DNA of 64,000 nucleotides from Syntrophotalea acetylenivorans. Lineage in GTDB: Bacteria; Desulfobacterota; Desulfuromonadia; Desulfuromonadales; Syntrophotaleaceae. Under the pieces are notes generated by a model that was not told the DNA's origin, did not search any database, and saw only the letters and a list, made by a program, of their open reading frames with translations. The DNA lies in the NCBI RefSeq assembly GCF_001887775.1, contig NZ_CP015519.1, forward strand, positions 2,912,001-2,976,000, written 5' to 3'. Position numbers and translations under genes: made by a program. This document shows positions 4,916-34,827 of the stretch, piece by piece (the first letter of the stretch is position 1; each line of letters opens with the position of its first letter).

Positions 4916-5187
4916 GGAATTCACCTCCTTTGCTTTTAGATTATGAGCAATGGCTTCAATGCCATTGCGATTCTTTATACAACAGCTAGAGTTTCCTTGT
5001 CCACCCTAAAGCACTGTCCTTGCGGGAGCGGCTATAAAACCCCTTGCATTTACCCCGGCCGTGCTTTAGTATTTCGAAGTTTGTACCGGATACGGAAGCC
5101 GCTTGTTTTATAAAAAAGCGTTTTATTGTTCAAGAGTTAGGCGTCATTTTGTTGGTCTGCCTAACAAAAAAGCTAAGGAGAAAGTTC

Positions 5188-6450
5188 ATGGATATTCTTG
5201 CTCTAAATTGTGGCAGCTCATCGGTAAAATACCAGCTTTATAACTGGGACAAAAAGGAAGTTATCGCCAAGGGTGTTGTTGAGCGGGTCGGCATCGGCAA
5301 TTCGTTCATCGGCCACGAAGTTCCCGGCCGGGACGATTACAAGAAGGAGCAGGATTGCTCCGACCACACCGTTGCCATCGAGCTGATTATCAATACCCTG
5401 CTCGATAAGGAAGTCGGTGTAGTAGATAACATGGATCAGATTTCCGCCGTCGGCCATCGCGTGGTTCACGCGGGTGAAAAATTTGCCAGTTCGGTCCTGA
5501 TCGACGATGCGGTGCTCGAGGCAGTCAAGGAATGCTCTCACCTTGCTCCCCTGCACAATCCGCCCAACATCATGGGCATCGAAGCGGCTCAAAAGGTGTT
5601 GCCCAACGTTCCTCATGTAGGCATCTTCGACACCGCTTTCCATCAGACCATGCCCGAAGAAGCCTACATGTACCCGCTGCCCTACGAGTGGTACGAAAAG
5701 CACGGCGTTCGCCGTTACGGTTTCCACGGCACCTCCCATCTCTATGTGTCCAAGCGGGCCGCTGTGCTGCTCGGCAAGGATTCCAAGGATTGCAACATCA
5801 TCACCCTGCACATCGGTAACGGTGCCTCCCACGCGGCGATTCGCGGCGGTGTTTGCGTCGATACCAGCATGGGCATGACCCCTCTGGAAGGGGCGGTTAT
5901 GGGTACCCGCTGCGGCGATATCGACCCTGCCATCCCGACCTTCATGATGGAGGCAGAGGGCTACACCGCCAAGGAGATGGACAGTATTCTGAACAAGAAG
6001 TCCGGTTTGCTCGGCATTACCGGTCAGTATACCGACCGTCGCGACATCGGTAATGGCATCGAGGCTGGCGACAAGCGCTGCAAGCTGGCCAATGATATCG
6101 AGTGTTATCGCATTAAGAAATACATCGGTGCCTACATGGCAGTTCTGGGCAAGGTCGATGCCATCGTCTTCACCGCCGGTGTCGGCGAGATGGGTTCCGA
6201 AATCCGTCAGCAGGCTCTCGAAGGTCTCGAGCCCCTTGGCGTCAAGGTCAATAAGGAGCTGAACCTCAAGACCCGTACCAAAAAAGCCGAAGTGGAAATC
6301 TCCACCCCCGATTCTCCGGTCAAGGTGTTTGTTATTCCCACCGACGAGGAGTTGGTTTTCACCGAAGACGTGGTCGGCATTCTGGAAAAAACTTATTGCG
6401 ATCACATGGACTTTGACTATACCTTCAAGTCCAAAGATTACGAGCGCTAG
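5188..6450 (+). CDS. ackA: Acetate kinase
   Basis: 420 residues, slightly longer than the usual 400. It catalyses reversible transfer between ATP and acetate giving acetyl phosphate. The N-terminal phosphate loop LNCGSSSVKYQ, the AVGHRVVHAGEKF region, the RRYGFHGTSHLYVS signature and HIGNGAS (ATP site) are all present. The start is the ATG at 5188, preceded by AAGGAGAAAGTTC; an upstream in-frame extension to 5044 lacks support. It works with pta, encoded convergently beyond an IS element, to interconvert acetate and acetyl-CoA. Confidence 0.97.
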   Translation: MDILALNCGSSSVKYQLYNWDKKEVIAKGVVERVGIGNSFIGHEVPGRDDYKKEQDCSDHTVAIELIINTLLDKEVGVVDNMDQISAVGHRVVHAGEKFASSVLIDDAVLEAVKECSHLAPLHNPPNIMGIEAAQKVLPNVPHVGIFDTAFHQTMPEEAYMYPLPYEWYEKHGVRRYGFHGTSHLYVSKRAAVLLGKDSKDCNIITLHIGNGASHAAIRGGVCVDTSMGMTPLEGAVMGTRCGDIDPAIPTFMMEAEGYTAKEMDSILNKKSGLLGITGQYTDRRDIGNGIEAGDKRCKLANDIECYRIKKYIGAYMAVLGKVDAIVFTAGVGEMGSEIRQQALEGLEPLGVKVNKELNLKTRTKKAEVEISTPDSPVKVFVIPTDEELVFTEDVVGILEKTYCDHMDFDYTFKSKDYER

Positions 6451-6475: not shown

Positions 6476-6515
6476 AAAAAGGCCGGCTTGGGAAATTCCC
6501 TGCCGGCCTTTTTTG
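6476..6515 (+). terminator. ackA terminator
   Basis: AAAAAGGCCGGC pairs with GCCGGCCTTTTTT around a short partly paired loop. It lies 25 bases after the ackA stop and directly before the IS element. Confidence 0.85.
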
Positions 6516-6562
6516 TTCATTTGTCCCGTCCTGAAATAAGTTTACAGCTAGGAGGCTTATTT

Positions 6563-6964
6563 ATGGACACAGCAGAAAGTAAGCGGAAGAGACGTACTCA
6601 ACGTGATTACACCATGGGCTTTAAATTGCAGGTGGTTGCTGCCGTAGAAAAAGGCGACATGACCTACAAGCAGGCTCAGAAGATTTATGGCATCCAGGGC
6701 CGCTCGACAGTGTTAAAATGGTTGCGAAAACACGGAAGGCTGGATTGGACCCAACCTGTGAGGATGACCATGCCCAAATCTCCCAAAGCCAAAGAAAGTC
6801 CCGCACAGAAAATCAAGCGACTCGAGCGCGAACTTGAGGATGAACGTCTTCGCAATCTGTTGTTGAATGAAGTGGTGGATATCCTGGATGCAGAGCACGG
6901 AACGGGACTGCGAAAAAAGTATATTGCCAAGGAGCGAGACGCCTTCAAAAACAAAAAGGGCTGA
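6563..6964 (+). CDS. IS3-family transposase OrfA (helix-turn-helix)
   Basis: 133 residues. A helix-turn-helix region (about residues 15-55, with FKLQVVAAVEKGDMTYKQAQ and STVLKWLRKHG) precedes a leucine/arginine-rich coiled coil (KIKRLERELEDERLRNLLL) used for multimerisation. A strong AGGAGG site precedes the ATG. The gene ends in a slip-prone CAAAAAGGG (6952-6960), suggesting -1 frameshifting into orfB to make the full transposase. Confidence 0.9.
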   Translation: MDTAESKRKRRTQRDYTMGFKLQVVAAVEKGDMTYKQAQKIYGIQGRSTVLKWLRKHGRLDWTQPVRMTMPKSPKAKESPAQKIKRLERELEDERLRNLLLNEVVDILDAEHGTGLRKKYIAKERDAFKNKKG

Positions 6965-7050
6965 GTCTAAGCCGCGCTTGTAAGCTCCTTGGCATCACCC
7001 GGCAAGCCGTTTATCAAAGAGAAAAACGCAGTGAGCAGCGCAGCATAGAG

Positions 7051-7797
7051 TTGGCACCCGTCAAGTCAATGGTGATGGAGGTCAGACGGTTTATGCCGCG
7101 GCTTGGTACGCGCAAACTGTATTTTTTGTTGAAACCCATGTTTGTTGAGCAGGGAATAAAGTTGGGGCGTGACGCTTTTTTTGACTATTTGAGAGCGCAT
7201 CAACTGCTGGTGACACCGATCAAGCGCTACACAAAAACGACGCACAGCAAACATTGGATGAAGAAATACCCGAATCGTTTAGGCAGTCAAGAGATCAGCT
7301 GTGCCGAACAAGCCTTTGTGAGCGATATTACCTACGTTGAAACGGATGAAGGTGTTCACTATCTATCATTGGTCACAGATGCCTATAGCCGCAAAATCAT
7401 GGGTTATGAAGTCAGTGACAATATGCGTGCTGACAGGGTCGTAAAAGCTTTACGTCGGGCAGCTAAGCAACGACAGACAAGCCGAGCGTTAATACACCAT
7501 TCAGACCGAGGTCTACAATATTGTTCAGCGATCTACCAGCAAGAGCTAAAGCGTCATGGTATGACGCCGTCAATGACAGATGGCTATGATTGTTATCAGA
7601 ACGCTTTGGCCGAGAGGGTAAATGGTATTTTGAAGCAGGAGTTTCTGATCACCAAGTGCCGGACTTTGAGTGAGTTGAAGGGTTTGGTGCGGGAATCCGT
7701 CGATACCTACAATCGTCTGAGGCCACACCTCAGCTTAGACATGAAAACACCAGAAGAAGTACATAAGAAAGCCACCTCCGCAAGGGAGGTGGCTTGA
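7051..7797 (+). CDS. IS3-family transposase OrfB (DDE integrase core)
   Basis: The frame is open back to the slip site near 6958, so the fused product would carry about 31 residues before the first in-frame start (TTG at 7051). The rve integrase core shows the catalytic triad: FVSDITYVET (D), HHSDRGLQY (D) and NALAERVNG (E). The C-terminal LRPHLSLDMKTPEE is typical of the family. It acts with OrfA to cut and join IS ends. Confidence 0.9.
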   Translation: MAPVKSMVMEVRRFMPRLGTRKLYFLLKPMFVEQGIKLGRDAFFDYLRAHQLLVTPIKRYTKTTHSKHWMKKYPNRLGSQEISCAEQAFVSDITYVETDEGVHYLSLVTDAYSRKIMGYEVSDNMRADRVVKALRRAAKQRQTSRALIHHSDRGLQYCSAIYQQELKRHGMTPSMTDGYDCYQNALAERVNGILKQEFLITKCRTLSELKGLVRESVDTYNRLRPHLSLDMKTPEEVHKKATSAREVA

Positions 7798-7850: not shown

Positions 7851-8852
7851 TCAGCCCTGAGCCTGAACAGCGGTAATAGCGGTGACGTTGATAATGTCGT
7901 CTACCGAGCAGCCGCGGGACAGATCGTTAACCGGCATGGCCAAGCCCTGAATGACGGGGCCGACAGCTTCGGCACCGGCCAGACGTTGTACAAGTTTGTA
8001 GCCGATGTTGCCGGCACCCAGATCAGGGAAGACCAGGGTGTTGGCTTTGCCTGCTACCGTAGAGCCAGGGGCTTTGCTGGCGCCGACCTTGGGTACCAGG
8101 GCGGCATCGGCCTGCAGTTCACCGTCGATCTGCAGCTCGGGAGCCATTTCCTTGGCGATGGCCAGGGCTTCGATGACCTTGTCGGCCTTTTCGTGCTTGG
8201 CGCTGCCCTTGGTGGAAAAGGAGAGCATGGCCACCCGCGCATCGACACCGAGGAAGCTTTTGCAGCTTTTGGCGGTCGATACGGCGATTTCGGCCAGGGC
8301 CCGTGCGTCCGGGTCGGGGTTGACGGCGCAGTCGGCAAACAACATGTAGCCGTTTTCACCGTATTCGGGGGTGTTGGTAACCATGATAAAGCAGGACGAA
8401 ACGGTTTTCATACCCGGTGCGGGGCCGATGACCTGAAACGCTGCGCGCAACACGTTGCCGGTGGTGTTGTAGGCACCGGCGACACAGCCTCCAGCATCGC
8501 CTTTGCGTACCATCATGGCACCGAAAAACAGGTTATCGTCGGCGGTCAGCAACTTCAGGGCGTCTTCACGGGACAGGCCCTTCTTTTTACGGATCTCGAC
8601 CAATTCGTCCGCGTAGGCGTCGAGTTGATCCGCGCTTTTGGGGTCGAGCAGGGTGACGCCCTCAAGGGAAACACCAAGCTCGGCAGCTTTTGCCTGCATG
8701 GCAGCGGGCTCGCCCAGCAGTACTACATTGGCGAGGTTGTCTTTTACGATCGGGCCGGCAGCCTGAATCATGCGGTCATCGTAACCTTCGGGCAGCACGA
8801 CTGTCTGCACGCTCTGACGGGCTTTTGCCTTGATCTGATCTACTAAATGCAT
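7851..8852 (-). CDS. pta: Phosphate acetyltransferase (short form)
   Basis: 333 residues, consisting of only the catalytic PTA/PTB domain without the N-terminal DRTGG/P-loop extension of enterobacterial Pta. It interconverts acetyl-CoA and acetyl phosphate. Signature segments include [42 protein letters not shown] and [24 protein letters not shown] site precedes the ATG and a good sigma-70 promoter lies upstream. Partner of ackA. Confidence 0.96.
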
Positions 8853-19409: not shown

Positions 19410-20183
19410 TTATGGGGTAACGGTAGCGGATTCCTTTATCGGCCTTTGTAATGAACGCCAATGATTTATTGGCCCGACCCACACTGCCAGGCAAAGAAGC
19501 GCGGCCAGCCATTCAGGCAGCATGCCGAGTGCCGCCAGCAACAGGGTAGCCACCGACAAGGCAAAGGTCCAGAGAAAAATCAGGCCTGGCAAAGGGCCCG
19601 TGGGTTGCAGGGACAGATCCGGAAAGAGGCCGGCCTTTTGCAGGTCGGCCTGATGGCGCAGAGCAAAGAGCCAGAAGTGGGGTAGCTGCCAAAGTAACAG
19701 CAGTCCGCTGAGCACGAGCAGGCGAAAGTCGCTGAGTTGGCCACCGCCGGCCAGCCAGCCCAGTATAGGGGCCATGCTGCCGCAACAGGCGCCAGGCAAC
19801 AAGGCCAGGGCCGTATGGCGCTTTAAGGGGGTGTAGAGACCGTTGTAGCAAAAGAGTGCGACAACACCGGCTAGAGCGCTGCTCTTGTCGCAAGCGGCCA
19901 GCAGTGTCAGGCCAAGGCTGCCGGCAACAGTCGCAGCGATGAGTACCGTGCGGGCCTGCAGACGGCCGGCCGCTAATGGCCGGTTGCGGGTGCGAATCAT
20001 GCGAGCGTCGCTGTGTCTTTCCTGGACCTGGTTGAGCATCGTGCCGGCCATGGCCAGAAGTAAAGTGCCAAGGCTCAATGGCAAGACAGTTGCCCCCGAG
20101 GCTCCGGGGCAGAGCAGCCACCCGCCCAGGGCCGCCGCGGCTACCGCGGCGCAGAGACGAATCCTCAGCAGGCCGGCGATCAT
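19410..20183 (-). CDS. ctaB: Protoheme IX farnesyltransferase (heme O synthase)
   Basis: 257 residues, UbiA-type integral membrane prenyltransferase with about eight helices. The prenyl-diphosphate motif is NQVQERHSDARMIRTRNRPL, and a second conserved region FCYNGLYTPLKRHT follows. It farnesylates heme b to heme o for the oxidase encoded just upstream. Its ATG overlaps the coxB stop (ATGA). Somewhat shorter than the usual 290 residues, mainly at the N-terminus. Confidence 0.9.
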   Translation of the reverse strand: MIAGLLRIRLCAAVAAAALGGWLLCPGASGATVLPLSLGTLLLAMAGTMLNQVQERHSDARMIRTRNRPLAAGRLQARTVLIAATVAGSLGLTLLAACDKSSALAGVVALFCYNGLYTPLKRHTALALLPGACCGSMAPILGWLAGGGQLSDFRLLVLSGLLLLWQLPHFWLFALRHQADLQKAGLFPDLSLQPTGPLPGLIFLWTFALSVATLLLAALGMLPEWLAALLCLAVWVGPINHWRSLQRPIKESATVTP

Positions 20184-21124
20184 GGCTTTTCCGGTGCAAT
20201 CGACAATACCTCGCTGCACAGGTAGTCGACCATGGACTGCAATTCATCCTCCGGAATTTGCTCCTGGTAAGAAGGCATCACCGGGGGATAACCGACGACC
20301 AGGTCGGCCTGAGCATCGAGGATGGAGCGCTGTATGTAATCGCGGTCGGCAATCAGTTTTTGCTCCTGCCCTTTACTAGTCACCTGTACCTGCCGACCGA
20401 ACAGCCCCTGAAAAGTTGGTCCGACCCGTTGGCTTCCATCTAACGAATGGCAACCGCTGCAGCCGTGACGGGTCAGCAGGGCGGGACCTTCGTCCGGTGC
20501 CACTTTTGCCCCCTGTTTTAACCAGGCGTCGAACTGTTCTTGCGGCAGGACCTCGACGGTGGTGATCATGGAGGAATGGCTGACGCCGCAATATTCAGCG
20601 CAATACAGATCAAAAGAACCGACTTCCGGTGCCCGGAACCAGACGTAAGTGTTTAGCCCGGGCACCGCGTCTTTTTTGACGCGGAAGGCCGGGATGTACA
20701 GACTGTGCAGCACATCTTTCGAGATGATCTCCACCCGTACCGCCTGTCCCAGCGGCACGTAAAGGCGGTCGCTGCTGCGGCCGTTTTGGTAATTGAAACT
20801 CCATGACCACTTGCGGCCCTCAGCCTGTACTTTGAGGGCGTCGGGTGGCACATCGCTCAGCTTCAGATATCCTTCCCAGCTGTACCAGAACATGCTCAGT
20901 ACGATCAGGGTCGGGATCAGGGTCCAGACCAGTTCCAGCCAGAGTTTGGAGCTGGGGCTTGGCTGCGGTTGCGGATGACGGCGACGGTGGTAGCGGATCA
21001 CAAACACCACCATGGTCGCGGTTATGCCAAGCAACAGCAGCCCTGAAATACCGAAAATATAGAGAAATACGGCATCGACGGCTTCAATGGTTGTTAAAGG
21101 CAGATCGGTCACAATTACTCTCAA
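20180..21124 (-). CDS. coxB: Cytochrome c oxidase subunit II with fused cytochrome c domain
   Basis: 314 residues. Two N-terminal membrane helices, a cupredoxin CuA domain with the full ligand set (CAEYCGVSHSSM), and a C-terminal class-I cytochrome c domain with CSGCHSL heme site and a distal Met (PPVMPSY). This is the caa3-type arrangement. The apparent start is TTG at 21124, with no visible ribosome site, because a family-2 repeat ends four bases upstream; translation may depend on that repeat or on an undetected start. Confidence 0.93.
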   Translation of the reverse strand: MRVIVTDLPLTTIEAVDAVFLYIFGISGLLLLGITATMVVFVIRYHRRRHPQPQPSPSSKLWLELVWTLIPTLIVLSMFWYSWEGYLKLSDVPPDALKVQAEGRKWSWSFNYQNGRSSDRLYVPLGQAVRVEIISKDVLHSLYIPAFRVKKDAVPGLNTYVWFRAPEVGSFDLYCAEYCGVSHSSMITTVEVLPQEQFDAWLKQGAKVAPDEGPALLTRHGCSGCHSLDGSQRVGPTFQGLFGRQVQVTSKGQEQKLIADRDYIQRSILDAQADLVVGYPPVMPSYQEQIPEDELQSMVDYLCSEVLSIAPEKP

Positions 21125-21128
21125 CGGT

Positions 21129-21254
21129 AATGGCGTCGTAAAAAGTCCGCTCTACTGCGTTGCAGCAATTTTTCAGCGTTTAGACATGCTTGTGTATGCC
21201 TTCTCCCCTGAAAAATCACTACGCCTTGTGGATCGAAATTTTTGCTTAGCCATC
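21129..21254. repeat. Dispersed repeat family 2, copy B
   Basis: About 126 bp, homologous in inverted orientation to 4059-4185. It lies inside the oxidase operon between coxD and coxB and reaches to four bases before the coxB start codon. Its ends ATGGCGTCGTAAAAAGTCC and (opposite strand) GATGGCTAAGCAAAAA form imperfect inverted repeats; an inner TTTTTCAG/CTGAAAAA pair makes the whole element foldable. Confidence 0.8.
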
Positions 21255-21275
21255 TCATAGTTTATTGCAAAAGAA

Positions 21276-21560
21276 TTAACGGTAGAGGACATCAAAAAAA
21301 GTCAGGCCGATAAAAGTGGCCAGGGTCAATAAAGCGACAAACAGGCAGAGCACCAGCATTCGGGGTTCGCTCTTGAGATGCATAAAATAGAATACGACCA
21401 GGCTCGCTTTCAAGGAGGCGATGCCAAGGGCGGCCCAGACATTGATGGCACCGAGATCATAACGGGCAACTCCGACAGTTATTCCGGTCAGGATTAACAG
21501 GAGAAACCAGACAGTGGTCAGACAACGAAAACTCAGGGGTTGATGGGCAGTTTGATTCAT
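21276..21560 (-). CDS. Cytochrome c oxidase subunit IV (CtaF/CoxD type)
   Basis: 94 residues with three membrane helices and the signature SLKASLVVFYFMHLKSEPR near residues 48-66, diagnostic for the small prokaryotic subunit IV family. It assists assembly or stability of the oxidase. Lies ten bases downstream of coxC in the same operon. Confidence 0.88.
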   Translation of the reverse strand: MNQTAHQPLSFRCLTTVWFLLLILTGITVGVARYDLGAINVWAALGIASLKASLVVFYFMHLKSEPRMLVLCLFVALLTLATFIGLTFFDVLYR

Positions 21561-21570
21561 GTGTCCCTCG

Positions 21571-22167
21571 TTACAGCAGCAGATAGTATAGGGGGAAGAT
21601 GAATATCCAAATCAGGTCGACCAGATGCCAGTAGAGGGCGCCGTTTTCCAGCATTACCGAATTTTCCGCGGTGACTTGGCCCCTGTGGGTCAGACCAAGA
21701 GTCCAAAGTAACAGGGCCGCACCGACCAGAACATGCAGGCCGTGCAGGCCGGTGGTCACGAAATAGAGACCGAAAAAAATCTGTTGGCCCACCGGCAGGG
21801 ACTCAAGTTCGGTGCCGCCGGGGAAGATGCCGTGGGCGAATTTGGCTTGCCATTCGACCCCTTTGATGGTCAAAAAAAGTAGTGACGCAAATATTGTAGC
21901 GCAGAGCAGTATCTGGCAGAGCTGCCGTCGTCCCTGTTGCAAGGCACTCAAAGCCAGCGCTACGGTCAGGCTGCTGGTAATCAATAATAGCGTATTGCCG
22001 GTGCCGAGCAGGGCGTCCAGCTGCTGACCGCCGGCGGCAAAATCGGCGGGATAGCGGGCCAGATAAACGGCGTAGAGTAGAAATAAACCACCGAACAACA
22101 GCAGCTCTGAAAACAGGAACAGCCACATACCGATCCGGGCGCCGAGGGCATCAGGTTGCATGGTCAT
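21571..22167 (-). CDS. coxC: Cytochrome c oxidase subunit III
   Basis: 198 residues, five predicted helices, the short bacterial form. Conserved segments are GMWLFLFSELLLFGGLFL (helix I), GVEWQAKF and the FGLYFVTTGLHGLHVLVG signature, ending in LYWHLVDLIWIFIFPLYYLL. The start overlaps the coxA stop by four bases. Confidence 0.94.
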   Translation of the reverse strand: MTMQPDALGARIGMWLFLFSELLLFGGLFLLYAVYLARYPADFAAGGQQLDALLGTGNTLLLITSSLTVALALSALQQGRRQLCQILLCATIFASLLFLTIKGVEWQAKFAHGIFPGGTELESLPVGQQIFFGLYFVTTGLHGLHVLVGAALLLWTLGLTHRGQVTAENSVMLENGALYWHLVDLIWIFIFPLYYLLL

Positions 22168-23777
22168 GGTTTACCTGCCTGTTCCAGGTCGTAGGGCCCG
22201 TGGGTTACCTGCGGCGGATGAGAAAAGTTTTCCTCGGGGGGCGGCGACGTCGGGACCCATTCGAGGGTGGCTGCTTGCCAAGGGTTATTGCCGGCGAATG
22301 CACCGCGCCGCATGCCGCGGTAGAGATTGATGAACATCAGCAACAGGCCGATGGCCAGCACCCAGGATCCGATGGTGGAAACCATATTAAGACCTTGAAA
22401 ATGCGGCAGGTAATCGTAGTAGCGGCGGGGCATGCCGCGCAGACCGACCAACATCATCGGAAAATAAAGCAGGTTGAAACCGACGAAGATGATGGCCCAG
22501 GCGACGGTGGCGATCTTCATGTTGTACAAGCGACCGAAAATTTTCGGTAGCCAGTAATGCAGAGCGGCAAAGAAGGCGAAGCCGGTGCCGCCGAACATCA
22601 CGTAGTGAAAGTGACCGACAACGAAGTGGGTGTCGTGGACATGCATGTCGGTGGATGCCGAGCCAAGGATCAGGCCGGTCAGGCCACCGATGGAAAAGAG
22701 GAAGACGAAAGCCAGGGCAAACAGCATCGGCGGCTCAAGGGAGATGGAGCCACGGTAGAGAGTGGCTACCCAGTTGAAGACTTTAACCGCCGATGGAATC
22801 GCCACCAGAAAGGTCAGCAGGGAGAAAATCAGGATGGCGGTGTCGCTCATGCCGCTGACGAACATATGATGCCCCCAAACCAGCGATCCGGCGGCGGCGA
22901 TGGCCACGCTTGAAGCGGCGATGGCTTTGTAGCCGAAGGTCGGCTTGCGGGAAAAGACCGGAATGATCTCCGATATCACCCCCATGGCCGGTAGGACCAT
23001 GATGTAGACCGCCGGGTGGGAGTAAATCCAGAACAGATGCTGGTAAAGGATCGGGTCGCCGCCCCGGGCCGGATCGAAGAGACCGAAACCGATGATTCGC
23101 TCGACCATCACCAGGACTACGGTGATGCCGAGAACCGGCGTGGCGAGTATCTGTACCCAGGCGGTAGCGTAGAGGGACCAGATGAACAAGGGCAGGCGCC
23201 CCCAGTGCATTCCCGGTGATCGCAAGCGATGGATCGTGGTGACAAAATTGACCCCGGTTAGAATTGAGGAAAAGCCGATGATGAACACCGCCAGCAGGGC
23301 CAGCGAGACGTTGGTCGGAGTCTCGGAGCTGAAGGGTACGTAAAATGTCCAGCCGGTATCCGGAGGGCCGCCGCCGCTGAATAAGGAGGTCAAAGCCATG
23401 AAGGCGCCAAGGATGTAGAGCCACCAGGAAAGCAGGTTTAGGCGTGGGAAAGCTACGTCTTGAGCGCCGATCTGCAAAGGCAGCATGATGTTGCCAAAGG
23501 CGCCGGGAATGCCGGGAATGATGAATAGAAAGATCATCACCACGCCGTGCAGGGTAAACAGGGCGTTGTACGTCTGAGCCGTGGCGATGGTCGGGCCGGG
23601 AGCGATGAGTTCCAGGCGGATCAGCAGACCCAGCAAAACGCCGGAAAGGAAAAAAGCACCGACTGAATAGAGATAGAGAAGGCCGATGCGTTTGTGGTCG
23701 ACGGAGAAGATCCAGTCGAAGAGCAGCGGCTGTCGGTTGGAAGCCTGAAGAAAACCGCGGTCATTTTGCTTGGCCAT
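22164..23777 (-). CDS. coxA: Cytochrome c oxidase subunit I (A2-type heme-copper oxidase)
   Basis: 537 residues, twelve helices expected. Heme/CuB histidines are in LHGVVMIFLF, WIYSHPAVYIMVLP, WGHHMFVSG and HDTHFVVGHFHYVMFG. The proton-channel region has YSHPAV rather than the GHPEV motif of A1 oxidases, which marks the A2 subfamily that lacks the helix-VI glutamate and uses Tyr-Ser instead. With subunit II carrying cytochrome c, this is a caa3-like proton-pumping oxidase. Operon order is sco, coxA, coxC, coxD, repeat, coxB, ctaB. Confidence 0.96.
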   Translation of the reverse strand: MAKQNDRGFLQASNRQPLLFDWIFSVDHKRIGLLYLYSVGAFFLSGVLLGLLIRLELIAPGPTIATAQTYNALFTLHGVVMIFLFIIPGIPGAFGNIMLPLQIGAQDVAFPRLNLLSWWLYILGAFMALTSLFSGGGPPDTGWTFYVPFSSETPTNVSLALLAVFIIGFSSILTGVNFVTTIHRLRSPGMHWGRLPLFIWSLYATAWVQILATPVLGITVVLVMVERIIGFGLFDPARGGDPILYQHLFWIYSHPAVYIMVLPAMGVISEIIPVFSRKPTFGYKAIAASSVAIAAAGSLVWGHHMFVSGMSDTAILIFSLLTFLVAIPSAVKVFNWVATLYRGSISLEPPMLFALAFVFLFSIGGLTGLILGSASTDMHVHDTHFVVGHFHYVMFGGTGFAFFAALHYWLPKIFGRLYNMKIATVAWAIIFVGFNLLYFPMMLVGLRGMPRRYYDYLPHFQGLNMVSTIGSWVLAIGLLLMFINLYRGMRRGAFAGNNPWQAATLEWVPTSPPPEENFSHPPQVTHGPYDLEQAGKP

Positions 23778-27869: not shown

Positions 27870-28907
27870 ATGGAAGTCTGGCAACATACCCTGCGGCAGG
27901 CCCTGGTCGATCCCGCCGAACTGGCGGAGCGATTCGATGTCGCTGTGGCGCCCCTGCAGGAAGTGGCGCAACGCTACCCCATGCGCATCAGCCGCTACTA
28001 TTTCGACCTGATCGAGGCCCCCGGCGATGCCGTCTGGCGTCAGTGCGTACCCGATCTGCGTGAACTGACCGACCCGACCCTTTCGCCCGATCCTCTGGAC
28101 GAGGGACGGCTATCACCTGTACCGGCGGTGGTGCATCGCTATCCCGATCGGGTGCTGTTGCTGGCAGGCAGCGATTGCGCCACCTACTGCCGCTTCTGCA
28201 CTCGCAAGCGTAAGCTCGGTTGTTCATCTATGAAGGTCAGTGAGGCGGAGCTTCATGCAGGTATCGACTATGTTGCCGATCACTCGGAAGTGCGGGATGT
28301 GCTTTTGTCCGGGGGGGACCCTCTGCTTCTTGAAGATGACCAGTTGGAAGCAATTCTACTCCGCTTGAGTGCGATTCCCCATGTGGAGATGGTGCGTATC
28401 GGTAGCCGATTGCCCGTGACCCTGCCGGAACGCATAACCGACAATCTGTGCAAACTGCTACGCCGTTTCCCGCCCCTTTACCTGAATACTCACTTCAATC
28501 ATCCCCGGGAATTGACTCCTCAGGCGGCCGCTGCCTGCAACAAACTGGTCGATGCCGGTGTCGTTCTCGGCAATCAGACCGTGTTGTTGCGCGGGGTCAA
28601 CGACTCGGCGGTTACTCTGGCCAGGTTGTGGCGTGGTCTGTTGCGCCTGCGGGTTCGTCCCTATTATCTGCATCATATGGATCTGGTTCGCGGCACCGGT
28701 CATTTCCGTACCCGGATCGAGACCGGTCTAGGAATTCTGCAAGAGCTGCGTGGGCCTTTGTCCGGCATGGCCCTGCCTCATTATGTGATCGATAGCCCGG
28801 GCGGCAGGGGTAAGATTCCGCTGCTGCCTGAATCTATACTTCGGCTTGGCGAACAGGCGTTGCTGCGGGCCCCTGGTGGCGAGACGATTGAGTTTCCTAA
28901 TCACTAA
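27870..28907 (+). CDS. KamA-family radical SAM aminomutase
   Basis: 345 residues. CxxxCxxC cluster site C103, C107, C110 (CATYCRFCTRKR), SAM-binding LLSGGDPLLL, and the PLP-binding region near the C-terminus (YVIDSPGGRGKIPLLPE) as in lysine 2,3-aminomutase. The window also holds efp and epmA; in gammaproteobacteria EpmB (also KamA family, about 342 residues) makes the beta-lysine that EpmA attaches to EF-P. The motifs here (CTRKR, DSPGGRGKIP) are closer to free-lysine aminomutases than to EpmB (CFRRH), so either role is possible. Confidence 0.85.
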   Translation: MEVWQHTLRQALVDPAELAERFDVAVAPLQEVAQRYPMRISRYYFDLIEAPGDAVWRQCVPDLRELTDPTLSPDPLDEGRLSPVPAVVHRYPDRVLLLAGSDCATYCRFCTRKRKLGCSSMKVSEAELHAGIDYVADHSEVRDVLLSGGDPLLLEDDQLEAILLRLSAIPHVEMVRIGSRLPVTLPERITDNLCKLLRRFPPLYLNTHFNHPRELTPQAAAACNKLVDAGVVLGNQTVLLRGVNDSAVTLARLWRGLLRLRVRPYYLHHMDLVRGTGHFRTRIETGLGILQELRGPLSGMALPHYVIDSPGGRGKIPLLPESILRLGEQALLRAPGGETIEFPNH

Positions 28908-28979
28908 TCCCCCCTTCACTAACGAACGCTCTTCGACCAACTGTCAGCCATTGTCAGACCAGATATGGGTTGGAAAGCT

Positions 28980-29168
28980 TCAGTTTTTCGCGCCGCCGTG
29001 TTCAAGATGCTGAAGAGGAAAGGGGAGGTCAGTGGCGATCTGATAACTAAGATCCTGCGCTGGCGGCACACCTCGGGCGTTAGCACTCATAACGGTTAAC
29101 TTTTTGGCGTCGGCGTCGTCGACCTCGATAAAGTAACGTCCTATTACCTGCTTACCCCTGCCCCTCAA
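28980..29168 (-). CDS. Small hypothetical protein, possibly truncated
   Basis: The frame reads convincingly protein-like (VIGRYFIEVDDADAKKLTVM, then PPAQDLSYQIATDLPFPLQHLEHGG) but lacks a good start. The TTG at 29168 has no ribosome site and the frame stays open upstream to about 29233 without an ATG. This could be a gene remnant or a small protein with an unusual start. Nothing like it is recognised. Confidence 0.35.
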   Translation of the reverse strand: MRGRGKQVIGRYFIEVDDADAKKLTVMSANARGVPPAQDLSYQIATDLPFPLQHLEHGGAKN

Positions 29169-29299
29169 AAAAGTGCACTGGGCCAGCGATTCCTTGACCA
29201 GTCTGACAATGGAGTGGTAATTTCCATCGACAATTCACCCTGAAAACAGTTTCAAATCAACGAGCAACACTTACGCTAGTCATCTTGAGGCGATTCATT

Positions 29300-29611
29300 A
29301 TGCGAGTTTTAATTGCTGTCGTGTTTTTTTTGATCCCAGCCTTCTGCGTTGCAGCCTCATCAAATATAACGGTATACGCCCCCGGCCAATACGTCTATAA
29401 AACCACGATGCATGATTCAAGGCGTTCATACGATCCGTGGTTTGATGTGCAGATAGTCTGCAATCACGGCAAGAAAAATTACATAGTCTCCAATCAAAGA
29501 ACGAAAGAACAATTTTATCTTGACGCGAATCAGGCCGTTTATTTTTTTACCAGTCCCGGGCTTGAATCGATACGTGATTATAAATGCATCAAAGATTACG
29601 GGAGTAACTAG
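29300..29611 (+). CDS. Small secreted hypothetical protein
   Basis: 103 residues from the ATG at 29300, with GAGG nine bases upstream. A clear signal peptide (MRVLIAVVFFLIPAFCVAAS) precedes a mature part of about 80 residues with two cysteines (IVCNHG and YKCIKDYG) that could form a disulfide. The base composition is clearly richer in A+T than neighbouring genes, hinting at acquisition by transfer. A terminator follows. Function unknown. Confidence 0.6.
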   Translation: MRVLIAVVFFLIPAFCVAASSNITVYAPGQYVYKTTMHDSRRSYDPWFDVQIVCNHGKKNYIVSNQRTKEQFYLDANQAVYFFTSPGLESIRDYKCIKDYGSN

Positions 29612-29687
29612 TTGAGAGAGCACTTGAAAAAGCCACCCTTGAGCGAAGGTTTTAGTCAACGTCGATCGCCGGTTTAATTGAAAAGAA

Positions 29688-29719
29688 AGGGCCCGCACAA
29701 TCAGTGCGAGCCTTTTTTT
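29688..29719 (+). terminator. Rho-independent terminator
   Basis: GGCCCGCAC and GTGCGAGCC pair (one mismatch) around AATCA, followed by T7. It lies 77 bases after the small secreted protein gene. Confidence 0.75.
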
Positions 29720-29807
29720 GAGCGGCAGAAATAGGCCCAATCCTATTTGTCGGGGAAAATAGGTAATTGCGAAAAACGGTCTTGTTCGCGAGAACCGAAG
29801 CCAAGAA

Positions 29808-30704
29808 CTAGAAGTTGACCTTGCCCCCCGATCGCTCCACCGCCAGCTGCCAGAAGGCCTGCACGGCCGGGCGTTGCAGGTTGCGTTTGCTGGAACAGAG
29901 ACCGACCACATAGGGGTCGAGGGCTGGGCCGTTTTCAAGAATACGTACTTCTTCACGAAAGGGACTGCGGGCCAGAACCAGTTCCGGGACAATGCCGATG
30001 CCACAGCCGAGTCGTACCATGGCGATGAGCGCTTCGTTGCCGGAGACTTCGGATGTAATATTGGGAGTGATGCGCCGCTCTTTCAGCCATTGATCGAGGC
30101 GCCGCCGCGACAGGCCGCGCTGTGGTACGACCAGCGGTACTCGGGACAGGTCGATGATACCGTTCTTTAGCGGCAATTCGGTGGTGCTCTGCAGAGGTTC
30201 GATAAACAGCAGCGGCGTGTTGATAATGGGCAAGAACTGCAATTGGGCTCGATAACGATCGGGCAGGGCGGCTACCGCCAGATCGATGTCGCCGCTCTGC
30301 ACCAGAGCCACAGCCTGCTCAGCCACCCCGGTGCGCAGTTCCAGCTGTACCTCCCGATGGGCACTGCGAAAGGCCTCCAGCAGATGTGGCAACAGGCTGT
30401 AGACCGCGGTTACCGAGGCATAGATAGAGAGGCTGCCGGAGAGACCGCCCTCTCTTTGCAGACTGCTGCGCATGGCGTGCCATTCCTGCACCGTTCTTCG
30501 GGCGTAGGTTCGGAATTCTTCGCCGGCTGCCGAAAGGGCCACTTGCCGTTTGTCGCGAATGAATAAGGGCTGGCCCAGTTCTTCTTCAAGGCGTTGGATG
30601 GTTCGGGTCAATGCCGACGGACTTAGATTGCAGGCCTGACTGGTGCGACCGAAATGACGCAGCTCCGCCAGAGTCAGAAAAATCTCCAGATGACGAATGT
30701 CCAT
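29808..30704 (-). CDS. ilvY: LysR-family activator IlvY
   Basis: 298 residues. N-terminal winged helix-turn-helix (LEIFLTLAELRHFGRTSQACNLSPSALTRTIQRLEEELGQPLF) and a LysR substrate-binding domain. Sequence pattern and divergent placement to ilvC match E. coli IlvY, which binds acetolactate or acetohydroxybutyrate and activates ilvC. The end VPLVVPQRGLSRRRLDQWLK is also IlvY-like. A TGC-rich operator lies 13-29 bases before its own start, so autoregulation is likely. Confidence 0.88.
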   Translation of the reverse strand: MDIRHLEIFLTLAELRHFGRTSQACNLSPSALTRTIQRLEEELGQPLFIRDKRQVALSAAGEEFRTYARRTVQEWHAMRSSLQREGGLSGSLSIYASVTAVYSLLPHLLEAFRSAHREVQLELRTGVAEQAVALVQSGDIDLAVAALPDRYRAQLQFLPIINTPLLFIEPLQSTTELPLKNGIIDLSRVPLVVPQRGLSRRRLDQWLKERRITPNITSEVSGNEALIAMVRLGCGIGIVPELVLARSPFREEVRILENGPALDPYVVGLCSSKRNLQRPAVQAFWQLAVERSGGKVNF

Positions 30705-30716
30705 GAAATACTCCGT

Positions 30717-30733
30717 ATTGCGTTTTTTGCAAT
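30717..30733. promoter_or_regulatory. Probable IlvY operator
   Basis: ATTGC and GCAAT are separated by seven bases (TGCGTTTTTTGCA contains the LysR-type T-N11-A). A second related half-site, TTTACGCAATA, lies about 25 bases further toward ilvC, consistent with paired operators. Confidence 0.55.
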
Positions 30734-30754
30734 ATAGTATTCATAATAAATCAA

Positions 30755-30783
30755 TTTACGCAATAGTGGTTTTCGCGTATGGT
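30755..30783 (+). promoter_or_regulatory. Candidate ilvC promoter
   Basis: Weak -35 TTTACG (30755-30760), 17-base spacer and -10 TATGGT (30778-30783), as expected for an activator-dependent promoter. The predicted start at about 30790 coincides with the left edge of the family-1 repeat, so the repeat would become the ilvC leader. Confidence 0.4.
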
Positions 30784-30787
30784 GCTC

Positions 30788-30953
30788 TAGGAGTCTGTTG
30801 GACTTGACGGGCCGAAACGAAAAATTGGCTGTGAGAGGCCAGATTTTTGAGAATTTGAGAGCGAATAGCAGGGCTATTTGACGAAAATTGTCGAAAATAT
30901 GGGCCGATCAGGCGATTTTGCAGTCGGCTCATGGTAAGCCCGACAGCCTCCTG
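30788..30953. repeat. Dispersed repeat family 1, copy B (in ilvC leader)
   Basis: 166 bp, inverted relative to 791-955 with about four fifths identity by eye. Terminal inverted repeats: AGGAGTCTGTTGGACTT at the left and (opposite strand) AGGAGGCTGTCGGGCTT at the right. It lies between the ilvY/ilvC control region and the ilvC ribosome site. Confidence 0.82.
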
Positions 30954-30994
30954 ACCTATAAAATTTCCAATTCACCCACATAAGGAGAACAATC

Positions 30995-32467
30995 ATGGGA
31001 CAGAATTATTTTAATTCTCTGCCGCTGCGTCGCCAGCTTCAGGAACTCGGGACTTGCCGCTTTATGGACGCGTCGGAATTTGCCAACGGCTGTGAATATG
31101 CCAAAGGCAAGAAGATCGTCATCGTCGGTTGTGGCGCACAGGGCCTCAACCAGGGCCTCAACATGCGCGACAGCGGCCTCGACGTTGCCTACACCCTGCG
31201 TAAAGGTGCTATCGAAGAGAAGCGCCAGTCCTATCTCAACGCCACCGAAAACGGCTTTGCCGTCGGCACCTACGAAGAGATGCTGCCCACCGCCGACATC
31301 GTTATGAACCTCGCTCCCGACAAGCAGCACACCGACGTGGTTAACACCGTGGTGCCGTTGATGAAAGAAGGCGCGACCTTCTCCTATGCTCATGGCTTTA
31401 ATATTGTTGAAGAAGGTACTGTGATCCGCGCAGACCTGACGGTCATCATGGTCGCGCCCAAGTGCCCCGGTTCCGAGGTGCGTGAAGAGTACAAGCGCGG
31501 CTTTGGCGTTCCGACTCTGATCGCCGTACACGGCGAAAACGATCCCAACGGCGACGGCCTGGAGATCGCCAAGGCCCTCTGTTCCGCTCAGGGTGGCGAC
31601 CGCGCCGGGGTTCTTGAATCGTCCTTCGTCGCCGAAGTCAAATCCGACCTGATGGGCGAGCAAACCATCCTCTGCGGCATGCTGCAGGCCGGTGCGCTGC
31701 TCTGCTTCGACAAGATGACCCAGAACGGCATCGATGCCCCTTATGCCGTCAAGCTGATTCAGTTTGGTTGGGAGACTATCACTGAGGCACTCAAGCACGG
31801 TGGTATCACCAACATGATGGATCGTCTCTCCAATCCCGCCAAGCTGGTTGCTTTCGAATTGGCGGCTGAGCTCAAGCAGATTATGCGTCCCCTGTTCGAA
31901 AAGCATATGGACGACATCATCTCCGGCGAGTTTTCTCGCACCATGATGGAAGACTGGGCCAACGATGACATCAACTTGCTTACCTGGCGCGAGGCGACGG
32001 GCAAGACTGCTTTTGAGCAGACCGAAGGTGCGGGCGAGATTTCCGAGCAGGAGTATTTCGACAAGGCCATTCTGATGGTAGCCATGGTCAAAGCCGGCGT
32101 CGAATTGGCTTTCGAATCCATGGTTTCTTCCGGAATCGAGCCCGAGTCAGCTTACTACGAGTCCCTGCACGAAACCCCGCTGATCGCTAATACCATTGCT
32201 CGTAAGAAACTCTATGAGATGAACCGGGTGATCTCCGATACCGCCGAGTACGGTTGCTACCTTTTCGCCCACGCCTGCGTTCCTTTGCTGGAAGATTTCA
32301 TGAGCAAGGTCGGTACCGATGTCATCGGCAAGGGCCTCGATGTGACCGACAACAGTGTCGACAACAGCACCCTAGTCGCAGTCAACGCCGAGATTCGCTA
32401 CCACCTCATCGAAGAGGTCGGCCAGGAACTGCGTGCGGCCATGCAGGGCATGAAAGCTATCGTCTAA
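30995..32467 (+). CDS. ilvC: Ketol-acid reductoisomerase, class II
   Basis: 490 residues, the long class with two C-terminal knotted domains. It converts acetolactate and acetohydroxybutyrate to dihydroxy acids in valine and isoleucine synthesis, using NADPH. The nucleotide site is [14 protein letters not shown]; metal and substrate residues lie in [13 protein letters not shown]. Geobacter-type relatives usually have the short (about 338-residue) class I enzyme, so the long form together with ilvY resembles the gammaproteobacterial ilvYC unit. AAGGAGAACAATC precedes the ATG. Confidence 0.97.
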
Positions 32468-32492
32468 ACGACGAATAATTTATATCGCCAAC

Positions 32493-32537
32493 AAAAAGGG
32501 GGGCAGACTGCATCAGGCAGTCTGCCCCCCTTTTTTT
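32493..32537 (+). terminator. ilvC terminator
   Basis: A very strong stem, AAAAAGGGGGGCAGACTGC with GCAGTCTGCCCCCCTTTTTTT around ATCAG, 25 bases after the stop codon. Confidence 0.92.
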
Positions 32538-32548
32538 AGTTTGAAGAT

Positions 32549-32590
32549 GATGGCGTCGCAAAAACGGTGTTGAATGGCTAAGCGAAATAA
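32549..32590. repeat. Fragment of repeat family 2
   Basis: GATGGCGTCGCAAAAA (one end of family 2) is followed within ten bases by ATGGCTAAGCGAAA (the other end) in the same orientation, with the core missing. The remaining sequence to 32790 shows nothing further except a ribosome site for the next gene. Confidence 0.5.
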
Positions 32591-32790
32591 AAGAGAAGTC
32601 ACGCGCTCATTTTATCCACTCCGCATTTTGCTCGTGTCGCTACTGTTTTTTTGTATGGATCGGGGCCGTTGATTGACAACGATAATTAATCAAATATACT
32701 TAGGCATCGCTAATTGTTTGGAGAGGTTAAATCGACAAGGATTTCGAAAAGTTTAGCAAGGTCAAATCACCTGTAAATACGGAGGCCGTA

Positions 32791-33027
32791 ATGATTTATT
32801 ACTGTCCACTTGCGTTTTCTAGAGACTGCAACAAGGAGAAATGTTCCTTCCACGGTACGTCTAGTTGTATCGACGGTCAGTTGCGGGTCAGTGTCAGCAA
32901 CCGAACAAGTGGCCGGGGCGTTCCCTGTCCCCGTGCCCATGGTCCCAATTGCAATGAAAAAGATTGTTCCCTGTGGGGGTCGCCGAGTTGCAATGGGGGA
33001 GAAGTTAACATCTATATACAACTCTGA
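32791..33027 (+). CDS. Cys-rich protein with two identical-spacing cysteine modules
   Basis: 78 residues, ATG preceded by CGGAGGCCGTA. Two modules share the pattern C-x7-C-x4-C-x7-C: Cys5, 13, 18, 26 and Cys46, 54, 59, 67. Local similarity includes CN(K/E)EKxC and GxxSCxxG, so the protein arose by internal duplication. No signal peptide is present, which favours cytoplasmic metal or iron-sulfur binding over disulfides. I recognise no known family. It stands alone between the ilvC terminator and epmA (opposite strand). Confidence 0.7.
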   Translation: MIYYCPLAFSRDCNKEKCSFHGTSSCIDGQLRVSVSNRTSGRGVPCPRAHGPNCNEKDCSLWGSPSCNGGEVNIYIQL

Positions 33028-33155
33028 TCTGGTTGGCGGGTGCATGGACCATCGATTCCAAACCGGATTGTAATAGAATTGATGTCGAGATTAGGGCATG
33101 GCAAGGTCTGAGATGATCATGCTGTTGTAAAGACTCGCTGCATCAATCTTGGTTT

Positions 33156-34067
33156 TTACAGTAATTCGGGGGTGAAGGTTACCACTTCATCGATGGTGGT
33201 GGCGTCAGTGAGCAGCATCACCAGGCGATCGAGACCGAGGGCGATGCCGGCTGCTTCGGGCATGGCGGCTAGCTCGGTAAGGAATTTATCCGGGACAGGA
33301 TAGGGGGGCTTGCCGGCTGCTCGGCGCTCGGCTTCATCAGCGTCGAACCGTCGGCGTTGTTCTGTGGGATCGGTCAATTCGGAAAAGGCGTTAGCTAACT
33401 CAATGCCTGCCACATAGAGTTCAAAACGTTCGGCTACTTGAGGGCGCTCGGGATGGCAACGGGCAAGAGCTGCAAGTTCAGAGGGGTATTCGATAAGAAA
33501 TGTCGGCCGATCTCGGCCCAGGAGCGGTTCGACCTCCAGGGTTAGCAATTCGTCAAAGCGATTCGTCTCCAGGGCCGTGGCCAGTCCTAAGCTGGCATAG
33601 CGATCAAAAGCTTCTGCTACGGTGAGCCGTTCAAAGGGGCCACTCAGGTCAATGGTCTCACCTTGATAGACAATATTATCCTGCGGTGCCAACGCTCGAA
33701 GCAGTATCTCGCATTCGTCCATCAAGCGGCGGTAGTCGCAGTCGATGGCATACCATTCGAGCATGGTGAATTCGGGCAGGTGGCGCTTGCCCCGTTCTCC
33801 ATCCCGCCAGCAGTGGCAGATCTGAAACAGTTTCTCATAGCCCGCTGCCAGCAGCCGTTTCATGCACAGCTCAGGGCTGGTATGCAAGAACCAGTCAGCA
33901 CTGGTCATTGCATCGATATGGGCTTCAGGGGCGTTGCCCGGTAATCGCTGAGGGGTCTCGACTTCCAGATATTCCCGGGCATTAAAAAAGGCCCGGATCA
34001 TCTGTACGATCCGGGCCCTTTGTTCCAGCCGCGGACGCTTTCTGGTCAGCGCCCAATTGCCATCCAT
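33156..34067 (-). CDS. epmA: EF-P lysine lysyltransferase-like protein (GenX/PoxA)
   Basis: 303 residues, a class II lysyl-tRNA synthetase catalytic core without the anticodon-binding domain. Motif 2 is FQICHCWRDGERGKRHLPEFTMLEWY and motif 3 is GIALGLDRLVMLL. In E. coli EpmA attaches (R)-beta-lysine to a lysine of EF-P. The efp gene lies six bases upstream on the same strand, which strongly supports the same role here. Confidence 0.93.
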   Translation of the reverse strand: MDGNWALTRKRPRLEQRARIVQMIRAFFNAREYLEVETPQRLPGNAPEAHIDAMTSADWFLHTSPELCMKRLLAAGYEKLFQICHCWRDGERGKRHLPEFTMLEWYAIDCDYRRLMDECEILLRALAPQDNIVYQGETIDLSGPFERLTVAEAFDRYASLGLATALETNRFDELLTLEVEPLLGRDRPTFLIEYPSELAALARCHPERPQVAERFELYVAGIELANAFSELTDPTEQRRRFDADEAERRAAGKPPYPVPDKFLTELAAMPEAAGIALGLDRLVMLLTDATTIDEVVTFTPELL

Positions 34068-34073
34068 GATCGA

Positions 34074-34637
34074 CTATTCCTTGACCCGGGTAACGTACTC
34101 GCCGGTGCGGGTGTCGATCTGAATCAGGGTGCCTTCCTCAACGAAGGACGGCACTTGCAAGGTATAGCCGCTCTCTACGGTGGCCGGCTTGTTGTTGCCG
34201 GCGGCGGTGTCGCCCTTGACCCAGGGTTCGGATTGGGTGACCCGCAGATTGACGAAGTTGGGCAGAGTGATGCCGATGCCGCGCTCGCCGAACATCAGGA
34301 TCTTGACCTCCATGTTGTCGACCAGGAAGTATTTTTGGTCGCCGAGGGCTTCTTCCGGCAGGGTGGTCTGCTCGTAGGTTTTCTGGTCCATGAAGACATA
34401 TCCGGACTCATCCTGATAGAGGTACTGCATGTCGGATTCATGCAGAGCCGCAGGCTCAAAGCTTTCGCCAGAGCGGTAGGTGCGGTCGAACAGAGCACCG
34501 GTAATCATGTTACGCAGTTTGCATTTATATAGGGCTTGGCCTTTGCCAGGTTTAGAAAAATCGAACTGGGCGATGACGTGCGGTTCGCCGTCGATCATCA
34601 GCTTGGTACCTTTACGCAGGTCGGACGTGCTCAGCAT
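34074..34637 (-). CDS. efp: Elongation factor P
   Basis: 187 residues, three beta domains. The tip loop is FSKPGKGQAL with the modifiable lysine at residue 32 (E. coli K34), so it should be a substrate for the epmA product. The C-terminal signature IDTRTGEYVTRVK is intact. It relieves ribosome stalling at polyproline stretches. I chose the ATG at 34637; an upstream frame to 34730 has no site. It forms an operon with epmA. A second, Arg-tip paralogue is encoded at 43627. Confidence 0.95.
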   Translation of the reverse strand: MLSTSDLRKGTKLMIDGEPHVIAQFDFSKPGKGQALYKCKLRNMITGALFDRTYRSGESFEPAALHESDMQYLYQDESGYVFMDQKTYEQTTLPEEALGDQKYFLVDNMEVKILMFGERGIGITLPNFVNLRVTQSEPWVKGDTAAGNNKPATVESGYTLQVPSFVEEGTLIQIDTRTGEYVTRVKE

Positions 34638-34827
34638 GGTAATTGCTCCTCTATCTGTAATTGCCCCGGGGCTCAAAAGTGTCGAGAGTTTTAACATCAC
34701 ATTTAACCATAGGAATAACGTTCTTGTCATGAAAAAAGTCCCTTTTCTACGGCTTGCTCATAACGGCAGGTCATGCTATCAATGAAGCGGGATGAAACGG
34801 GGCCGTTTATTAGCATAGGAGCAATCG

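Follow-up and report, generated by a model that had tools for sequence, protein, structure and literature searches.

Gene and flanking sequences

The window, that is, the whole 64,000-nt stretch of Syntrophotalea acetylenivorans DNA that was analyzed, contains on its plus strand a 78-codon ORF that begins with ATG (32791-33027). The features assigned to the gene and its surroundings were as follows.

32498..32537, plus strand: terminator-like hairpin and T-run 3′ of ilvC, parting the gene from ilvC (by eye)
32673..32700, plus strand: sigma-70-type promoter-like sequence, TTGACA-N16-TATACT (orthologue comparison)
32700..32714, plus strand: imperfect inverted repeat, TTAGS-N4-SCTAAT, abutting the -10 box
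32781..32785, plus strand: ribosome binding site, GGAGG (by eye)
32791..33027, plus strand: gene for a 78-residue protein with two 4-Cys repeats (ORF list, orthologues, dN/dS)
32797..32895, plus strand: repeat 1, residues 3-35, Cys 5, 13, 18, 26 (repeat alignment, shuffles)
32896..32919, plus strand: linker, residues 36-43, 0/8 columns invariant (orthologue columns)
32920..33018, plus strand: repeat 2, residues 44-76, Cys 46, 54, 59, 67 (repeat alignment, shuffles)

The gene lies downstream of ilvC (30995-32467), which encodes KARI domains. A preliminary description of the locus, made from the nucleotide sequence, had credited the ORF with a gap of its own and a good ribosome binding site, and inspection agreed on both counts: the gene stands apart, 3′ of the terminator-like hairpin, and GGAGG is found 5 nt upstream of the ATG. 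Similar hairpins were present 3′ of ilvC at loci L007, L008, and L069. Downstream of the gene, a minus-strand gene for a tRNA-synt_2 protein (33156-34067), which we take to be EpmA, is followed by the gene for EF-P. An EpmA-like gene and efp were also found downstream at L007 and L070, with an opposite-strand ORF of 119 residues intervening at L007; in genomes G002 and G003, the contig extends for less than 1 kb after the ORF and the next gene falls outside the data.

In the promoter-like sequence, the -35 box and the length of the 16-nt spacer were identical in all five full-length orthologues described below, and the -10 box read TATACT, TATGCT, or TACACT. The corresponding pattern, which was derived from that very site, occurred once in the window with 0.01 expected. 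Since the gene has a promoter-like sequence of its own, its neighborhood is no strong guide to function. The inverted repeat next to the -10 box was best formed at L007 and L008 and is a possible local operator. It was not enriched in a search of five genomes, where it occurred seven times, including three times at the gene under study, as compared with 21 times for the pattern in reverse, used as a control.

Conservation and distribution

Full-length orthologues were found in the window, in three genomes of the same genus (G001, G002, G003), and in one genome of another genus (G009), at 83-87% and 67-68% identity, and ilvC was upstream of the gene in all five. Loci other than the window are referred to here as L004, L005, L007, and L008. 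A protein search gave matches in six of 58 genomes, the window's own included, and a full-length profile returned the same six genomes among 136 of the order and among 277 of the class. In the sixth genome (G007; loci L071 and L081), the match lies directly 3′ of the ilvC hairpin and spans residues 18-61 only; five of the cysteines (C18, C26, C46, C54, and C59) are preserved there at unchanged distances, the residue corresponding to C67 is not a Cys, and an N-terminal part of the protein was not seen in any of the six frames. This apparent remnant suggests loss of the gene in that genome, and hence that the gene can be lost. Other sequence occupied the position 3′ of ilvC in four genomes of genus g3 (L076, L077, L079, L080). 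Absence from G004, of the same genus as the window, says little because the ilvC match there ends at residue 436, at contig base 1. A plasmid search gave no match, a phage search gave 27 records with a best E-value of 3, and the other viral scans were empty.

By the NG86 method, dN/dS was 0.07-0.18 in all ten orthologue pairs, the values for the four pairs that include L005 being rough since dS (1.7-4.1) was near saturation there; YN00, computable for eight of the ten pairs, gave 0.19-0.28. Across the five proteins, 43 of 78 columns were invariant and 35 were variable, and all eight Cys were among the invariant ones (hypergeometric p = 0.006, given 43/78). The gene is lineage-restricted and under purifying selection, and conservation in relatives, which the preliminary description had left to be checked, is borne out by these five full-length orthologues with their low dN/dS and unbroken set of Cys.

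A profile of the single 4-Cys module, a search that had likewise been proposed, gave rows at E ≤ 0.1 in 60 of 395 genomes of the phylum and 26 of 134 genomes of the order. Most of these rows were short and near chance, the best beyond the orthologues and the G007 remnant having E-values of 4.9e-4 and 7.5e-4, and a Cys-pattern script found no further small two-module protein among the loci retrieved for these rows (a subset of those listed, up to 30 per retrieval), long ORFs being covered in part. Two matches were dropped: L009, which runs opposite to other ORFs and does not show the spacing of the cysteines, and L010, which spans just 20 residues.

Tandem repeats and cysteine spacing

Cysteines occur at residues 5, 13, 18, 26, 46, 54, 59, and 67 of the window protein, with gaps of 7-4-7-19-7-4-7. 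This agrees with the original observation of eight Cys in two identically spaced modules, and with four Cys in each module the protein has none to spare. When eight Cys were randomly placed in 78 residues, two equal gap triplets appeared with a frequency of 8.5e-5. Of the two features described as shared, CNxxxC and GxxSCxxG, CNxxxC held in nine and the GxxSC part of the second in eight of the ten modules of the five orthologues; the exceptions were all in L005. The module consensus was CPxAx4-C-N-x3-C-S-x2-G-x2-S-C-x4-[LV]-x-[VI].

Residues 3-35 and 44-76 of the window protein aligned without gaps at 33% identity; all four Cys coincided, and 7 of the 29 positions outside the Cys were identical. 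The BLOSUM score of the repeats was reached by none of 20,000 shuffles in the window protein and in L007, and p ranged from 5e-5 to 3e-4 in the remaining three orthologues; by plain identities the match was weaker (p 0.00025 to 0.023), and the five proteins so tested are related rather than independent. As judged from this alignment, the two halves represent a tandem duplication of a ~33-residue module. Because the halves resemble each other outside the Cys as well, their equal spacing is a legacy of the duplication that selection has maintained. The preliminary description had read the equal spacing itself as a sign of selection on Cys geometry. For a spacing inherited through duplication, that reading is incomplete; selection is shown by the preservation of all eight Cys and of every spacing between them in the five orthologues, given that 35 of the 78 alignment columns varied.

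Comparison with known families

Searches of Pfam, NCBIfam, PHROGs, and PDB gave no match to the protein that reached threshold, and no characterized zinc-finger or ferredoxin family, the kind of placement that the preliminary description had asked to be looked for, claimed it above cut-off. PDB gave no match to the single sequence, and two profiles each gave three chance-level rows (best E 0.28 and 0.86). Zinc ribbons and related zinc fingers are built on pairs of CxxC or CxxxC knuckles, and 2[4Fe-4S] ferredoxins carry the motif CxxCxxCxxxCP; the gaps 7-4-7-19-7-4-7 contain no knuckle pairs and do not match the ferredoxin motif. The one zinc-type Pfam row, TFIIIA_zf-C2H2, was below cut-off (E 0.11-0.21 in three of five orthologues), and none of the five proteins had a Fer4 row in Pfam. 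The best Pfam row of the window protein, also below cut-off, was Sushi_2 (PF09014, the fifth domain of beta-2-glycoprotein I; E 0.01), and Sushi_2-type proteins led the weak PDB profile rows too. This local match lies inside residues 13-33, with E 0.005-0.026 in four of five orthologues; since it is below cut-off, covers ~20 residues, and involves an animal extracellular domain, we took it as chance. Among papers matching the written spacings, none had the full 7-4-7 pattern; judged by their titles and the opening parts of abstracts, most concern peptides from venom, saliva, or plants and conotoxins, and one concerns CDCA7-HELLS.

The closest resemblance was to DUF1540 (PF07561). The double-domain DUF1540 proteins of the order likewise have two tandem 4-Cys units, with eight Cys in ~100 residues, and their C-x4-C-x7-C-x4-[ILV]-x-[VI] spacing is identical to that of both halves of the window protein; the strand part that follows the three Cys was present in all ten modules of the five orthologues. 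In the DUF1540 units collected here, the fourth Cys follows the strand, in C-x-[TD]-[FY], whereas in our protein it precedes the three-Cys core: C46, itself followed by P-R, stands at x19 after C26, C67 is the last Cys of the protein, and the C-x-T-F tail is missing. The gene could be a divergent or rearranged double DUF1540, in which C46 would complete the unit of C13/C18/C26 and C5 that of C54/C59/C67, a reading that is compatible with metal binding and not exclusive of the explanation we prefer below. L004 and L008 scored 21.0 bits (E 3.5e-4) and 17.1 bits (E 0.0059), respectively, against PF07561, and full-length profile-profile alignment placed both halves in register with DUF1540. However, none of the five orthologues reached the cut-off of 22.1 bits, and the per-member Pfam scan gave no PF07561 row for the window, L007, or L005. 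The profile-profile results were weak as well, with a probability of 0.5% (E 0.12) at full length. When the repeats were compared with 24 DUF1540 units, the probability was 6.4% (single-comparison E 0.0057) and the score was 13.7, a value also reached in 60 of 300 permutations of the columns with the Cys columns left in place.

Shuffling with the Cys held fixed gave a mixed picture. One of ten such shuffles of L004 obtained a PF07561 row, at 13.9 bits, and none reached 17.1 or 21.0. Against a DUF1540-unit model, the number of Cys-fixed shuffles scoring as high, out of 2000 per orthologue, was 41 (L007), 70 (L008), 121 (L004), 245 (window), and 1587 (L005); for full shuffles the numbers were 1, 8, 12, 40, and 1384 in the same order. 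On these comparisons, the likeness to DUF1540 would be mostly one of shared Cys geometry, and we file the gene as DUF1540-like in geometry rather than as a DUF1540 member; descent from a double DUF1540 is a somewhat unlikely origin. The preliminary description had known no family with this pattern, which is mostly right, except that in each module three of the four Cys are spaced as in DUF1540, and L004 and L008 fall just short of the cut-off of that family.

Among relatives, DUF1540 was detected in five of the 31 genomes searched (two matches in each of four, one listed in G022), and across the phylum in six of 297; it was not found at E ≤ 0.001 in the six genomes that have the studied gene or its remnant. 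At four DUF1540 loci viewed over ~3 kb (L092, L093, L095, L096), ilvC was not seen beside the gene. The DUF1540 proteins at L092-L114, mostly of two units, are scattered over the phylum. CdeA of Clostridioides difficile, a DUF1540 exosporium protein, is likewise small and Cys-rich; the comparison is one of description and not of sequence, and CdeA, unlike the protein studied here, is a spore protein of a spore-former. One paper reports no assigned function for the DUF1540 family (PMC7677010). Another shows an alignment of DUF1540 proteins beside Firmicute bd oxidases with cydX and ascribes a transmembrane segment to these proteins (PMC5322542). The window protein lacks any hydrophobic segment, its Kyte-Doolittle maximum over 19 residues being 0.23.

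Possible function

We tentatively favor a lineage-restricted protein of duplicated modules that is probably cytoplasmic, carries one four-thiolate metal site per module, and acts as a metal-bound adaptor or buffer. Tandem duplication of the ~33-residue module would have produced the small two-repeat protein, which would be expressed from its own promoter. Each module would fold separately around one Cys4 site, with structural Zn2+ the favored metal, and a free linker would join the two; the role of small metal-bound adaptor or of metal/thiol buffer is a guess. Separate folding is suggested by the distribution of invariant columns (21/33 in repeat 1 and 19/33 in repeat 2, versus 0/8 in the linker). 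We propose two four-thiolate sites because each of the two separate units has four invariant Cys, the linker between them is free, and the protein has no signal peptide, whose absence from the window protein, noted at the outset, was seen again by eye. Metal binding, one site per module, a cytoplasmic location, and use of the promoter are all inferred. The cytoplasm disfavors disulfides. Most zinc sites of this size carry a CxxC or CxxxC knuckle, and its absence from the protein is a point against zinc. AlphaFold gave no usable model of the whole protein (three sequences; mean pLDDT 38.3), and its model of one module (six sequences; mean pLDDT 57.4) was too poor for Cys clusters to be viewed.

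That the product is a disulfide-bonded repeat protein that acts beyond the cytoplasm, having been exported with no classical signal, is unlikely: the even number of Cys, the loops rich in Gly, Ser, Asn, and Pro, the lack of a CxxC knuckle, and the weak, sub-threshold local likeness to extracellular Sushi_2 would suit it, and cytochrome c oxidase genes in the window make oxidizing conditions possible, but neither a signal peptide, a lipobox, nor a neighboring export gene was seen by eye. A role in electron transfer through two small iron-sulfur sites appears rather improbable. Each module does offer four Cys, with CP at the first, yet we know of no ferredoxin, HiPIP, or rubredoxin motif with such spacing, and a ferredoxin/nitroreductase-like gene (by eye), although near in the window and at L007, is not adjacent. 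It is quite improbable that the protein is a circularly shifted DUF1540 pair, in which duplication and loss at the ends would have displaced the boundary between units, leaving the fourth ligand of each site before its three-Cys core instead of after it; such an arrangement would possibly entail exchange of ligands between repeats, C5 serving the second unit and C46 the first. Finally, that the ORF is accidental, lying over an RNA or over the 92-residue antisense ORF present at 32767-33045, is highly improbable, for although its GC3 is 0.506 against 0.605-0.717 in five neighbors, the dN/dS signal and third-position excess sit in its own frame, which alone is stop-free in all five orthologues, the antisense frame has one or two stops in each of the four others, and Rfam gave nothing at gathering score within the window.

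The 78-residue ORF is a real, narrowly distributed small bacterial gene. Its product is a narrow orphan variant of small Cys-rich proteins, part of whose geometry is already known from the uncharacterized DUF1540, and it adds a lineage-restricted member under purifying selection to a poorly explored group of bacterial proteins. Were the DUF1540 link true, these repeats with their moved fourth Cys would help to identify the cysteines that together make up a site in that family; a circular shift, if true, would show rewiring of small Cys4 sites with the three-Cys geometry kept.

Other genes in the window

Domain matches placed a lysine-2,3-aminomutase-like radical SAM protein, the tRNA-synt_2 protein, and EF-P within 7 kb (27870-34730). 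The first two are presumably EpmB-like and EpmA-like, and an EF-P lysylation set is apparently spread around ilvC. An ORF of 108 residues without a Pfam match (29285-29611, plus strand) has a signal-peptide-like start by eye. On the minus strand, COX2, COX3, and COX1 (20180-23777) provide this Desulfuromonadales genome with genes for a terminal oxidase of the aerobic type, so the lineage should not be taken as strictly anaerobic, and an argument for metal sites from an anaerobic lineage is weakened accordingly. A two-ORF transposase, presumably IS3-like (6488-7797, plus strand; rve domains in the second ORF, no Pfam match in the first), lies between convergent genes for acetate kinase (5044-6450, plus strand) and phosphate acetyltransferase (7851-8852, minus strand) and may have split an ack-pta unit.
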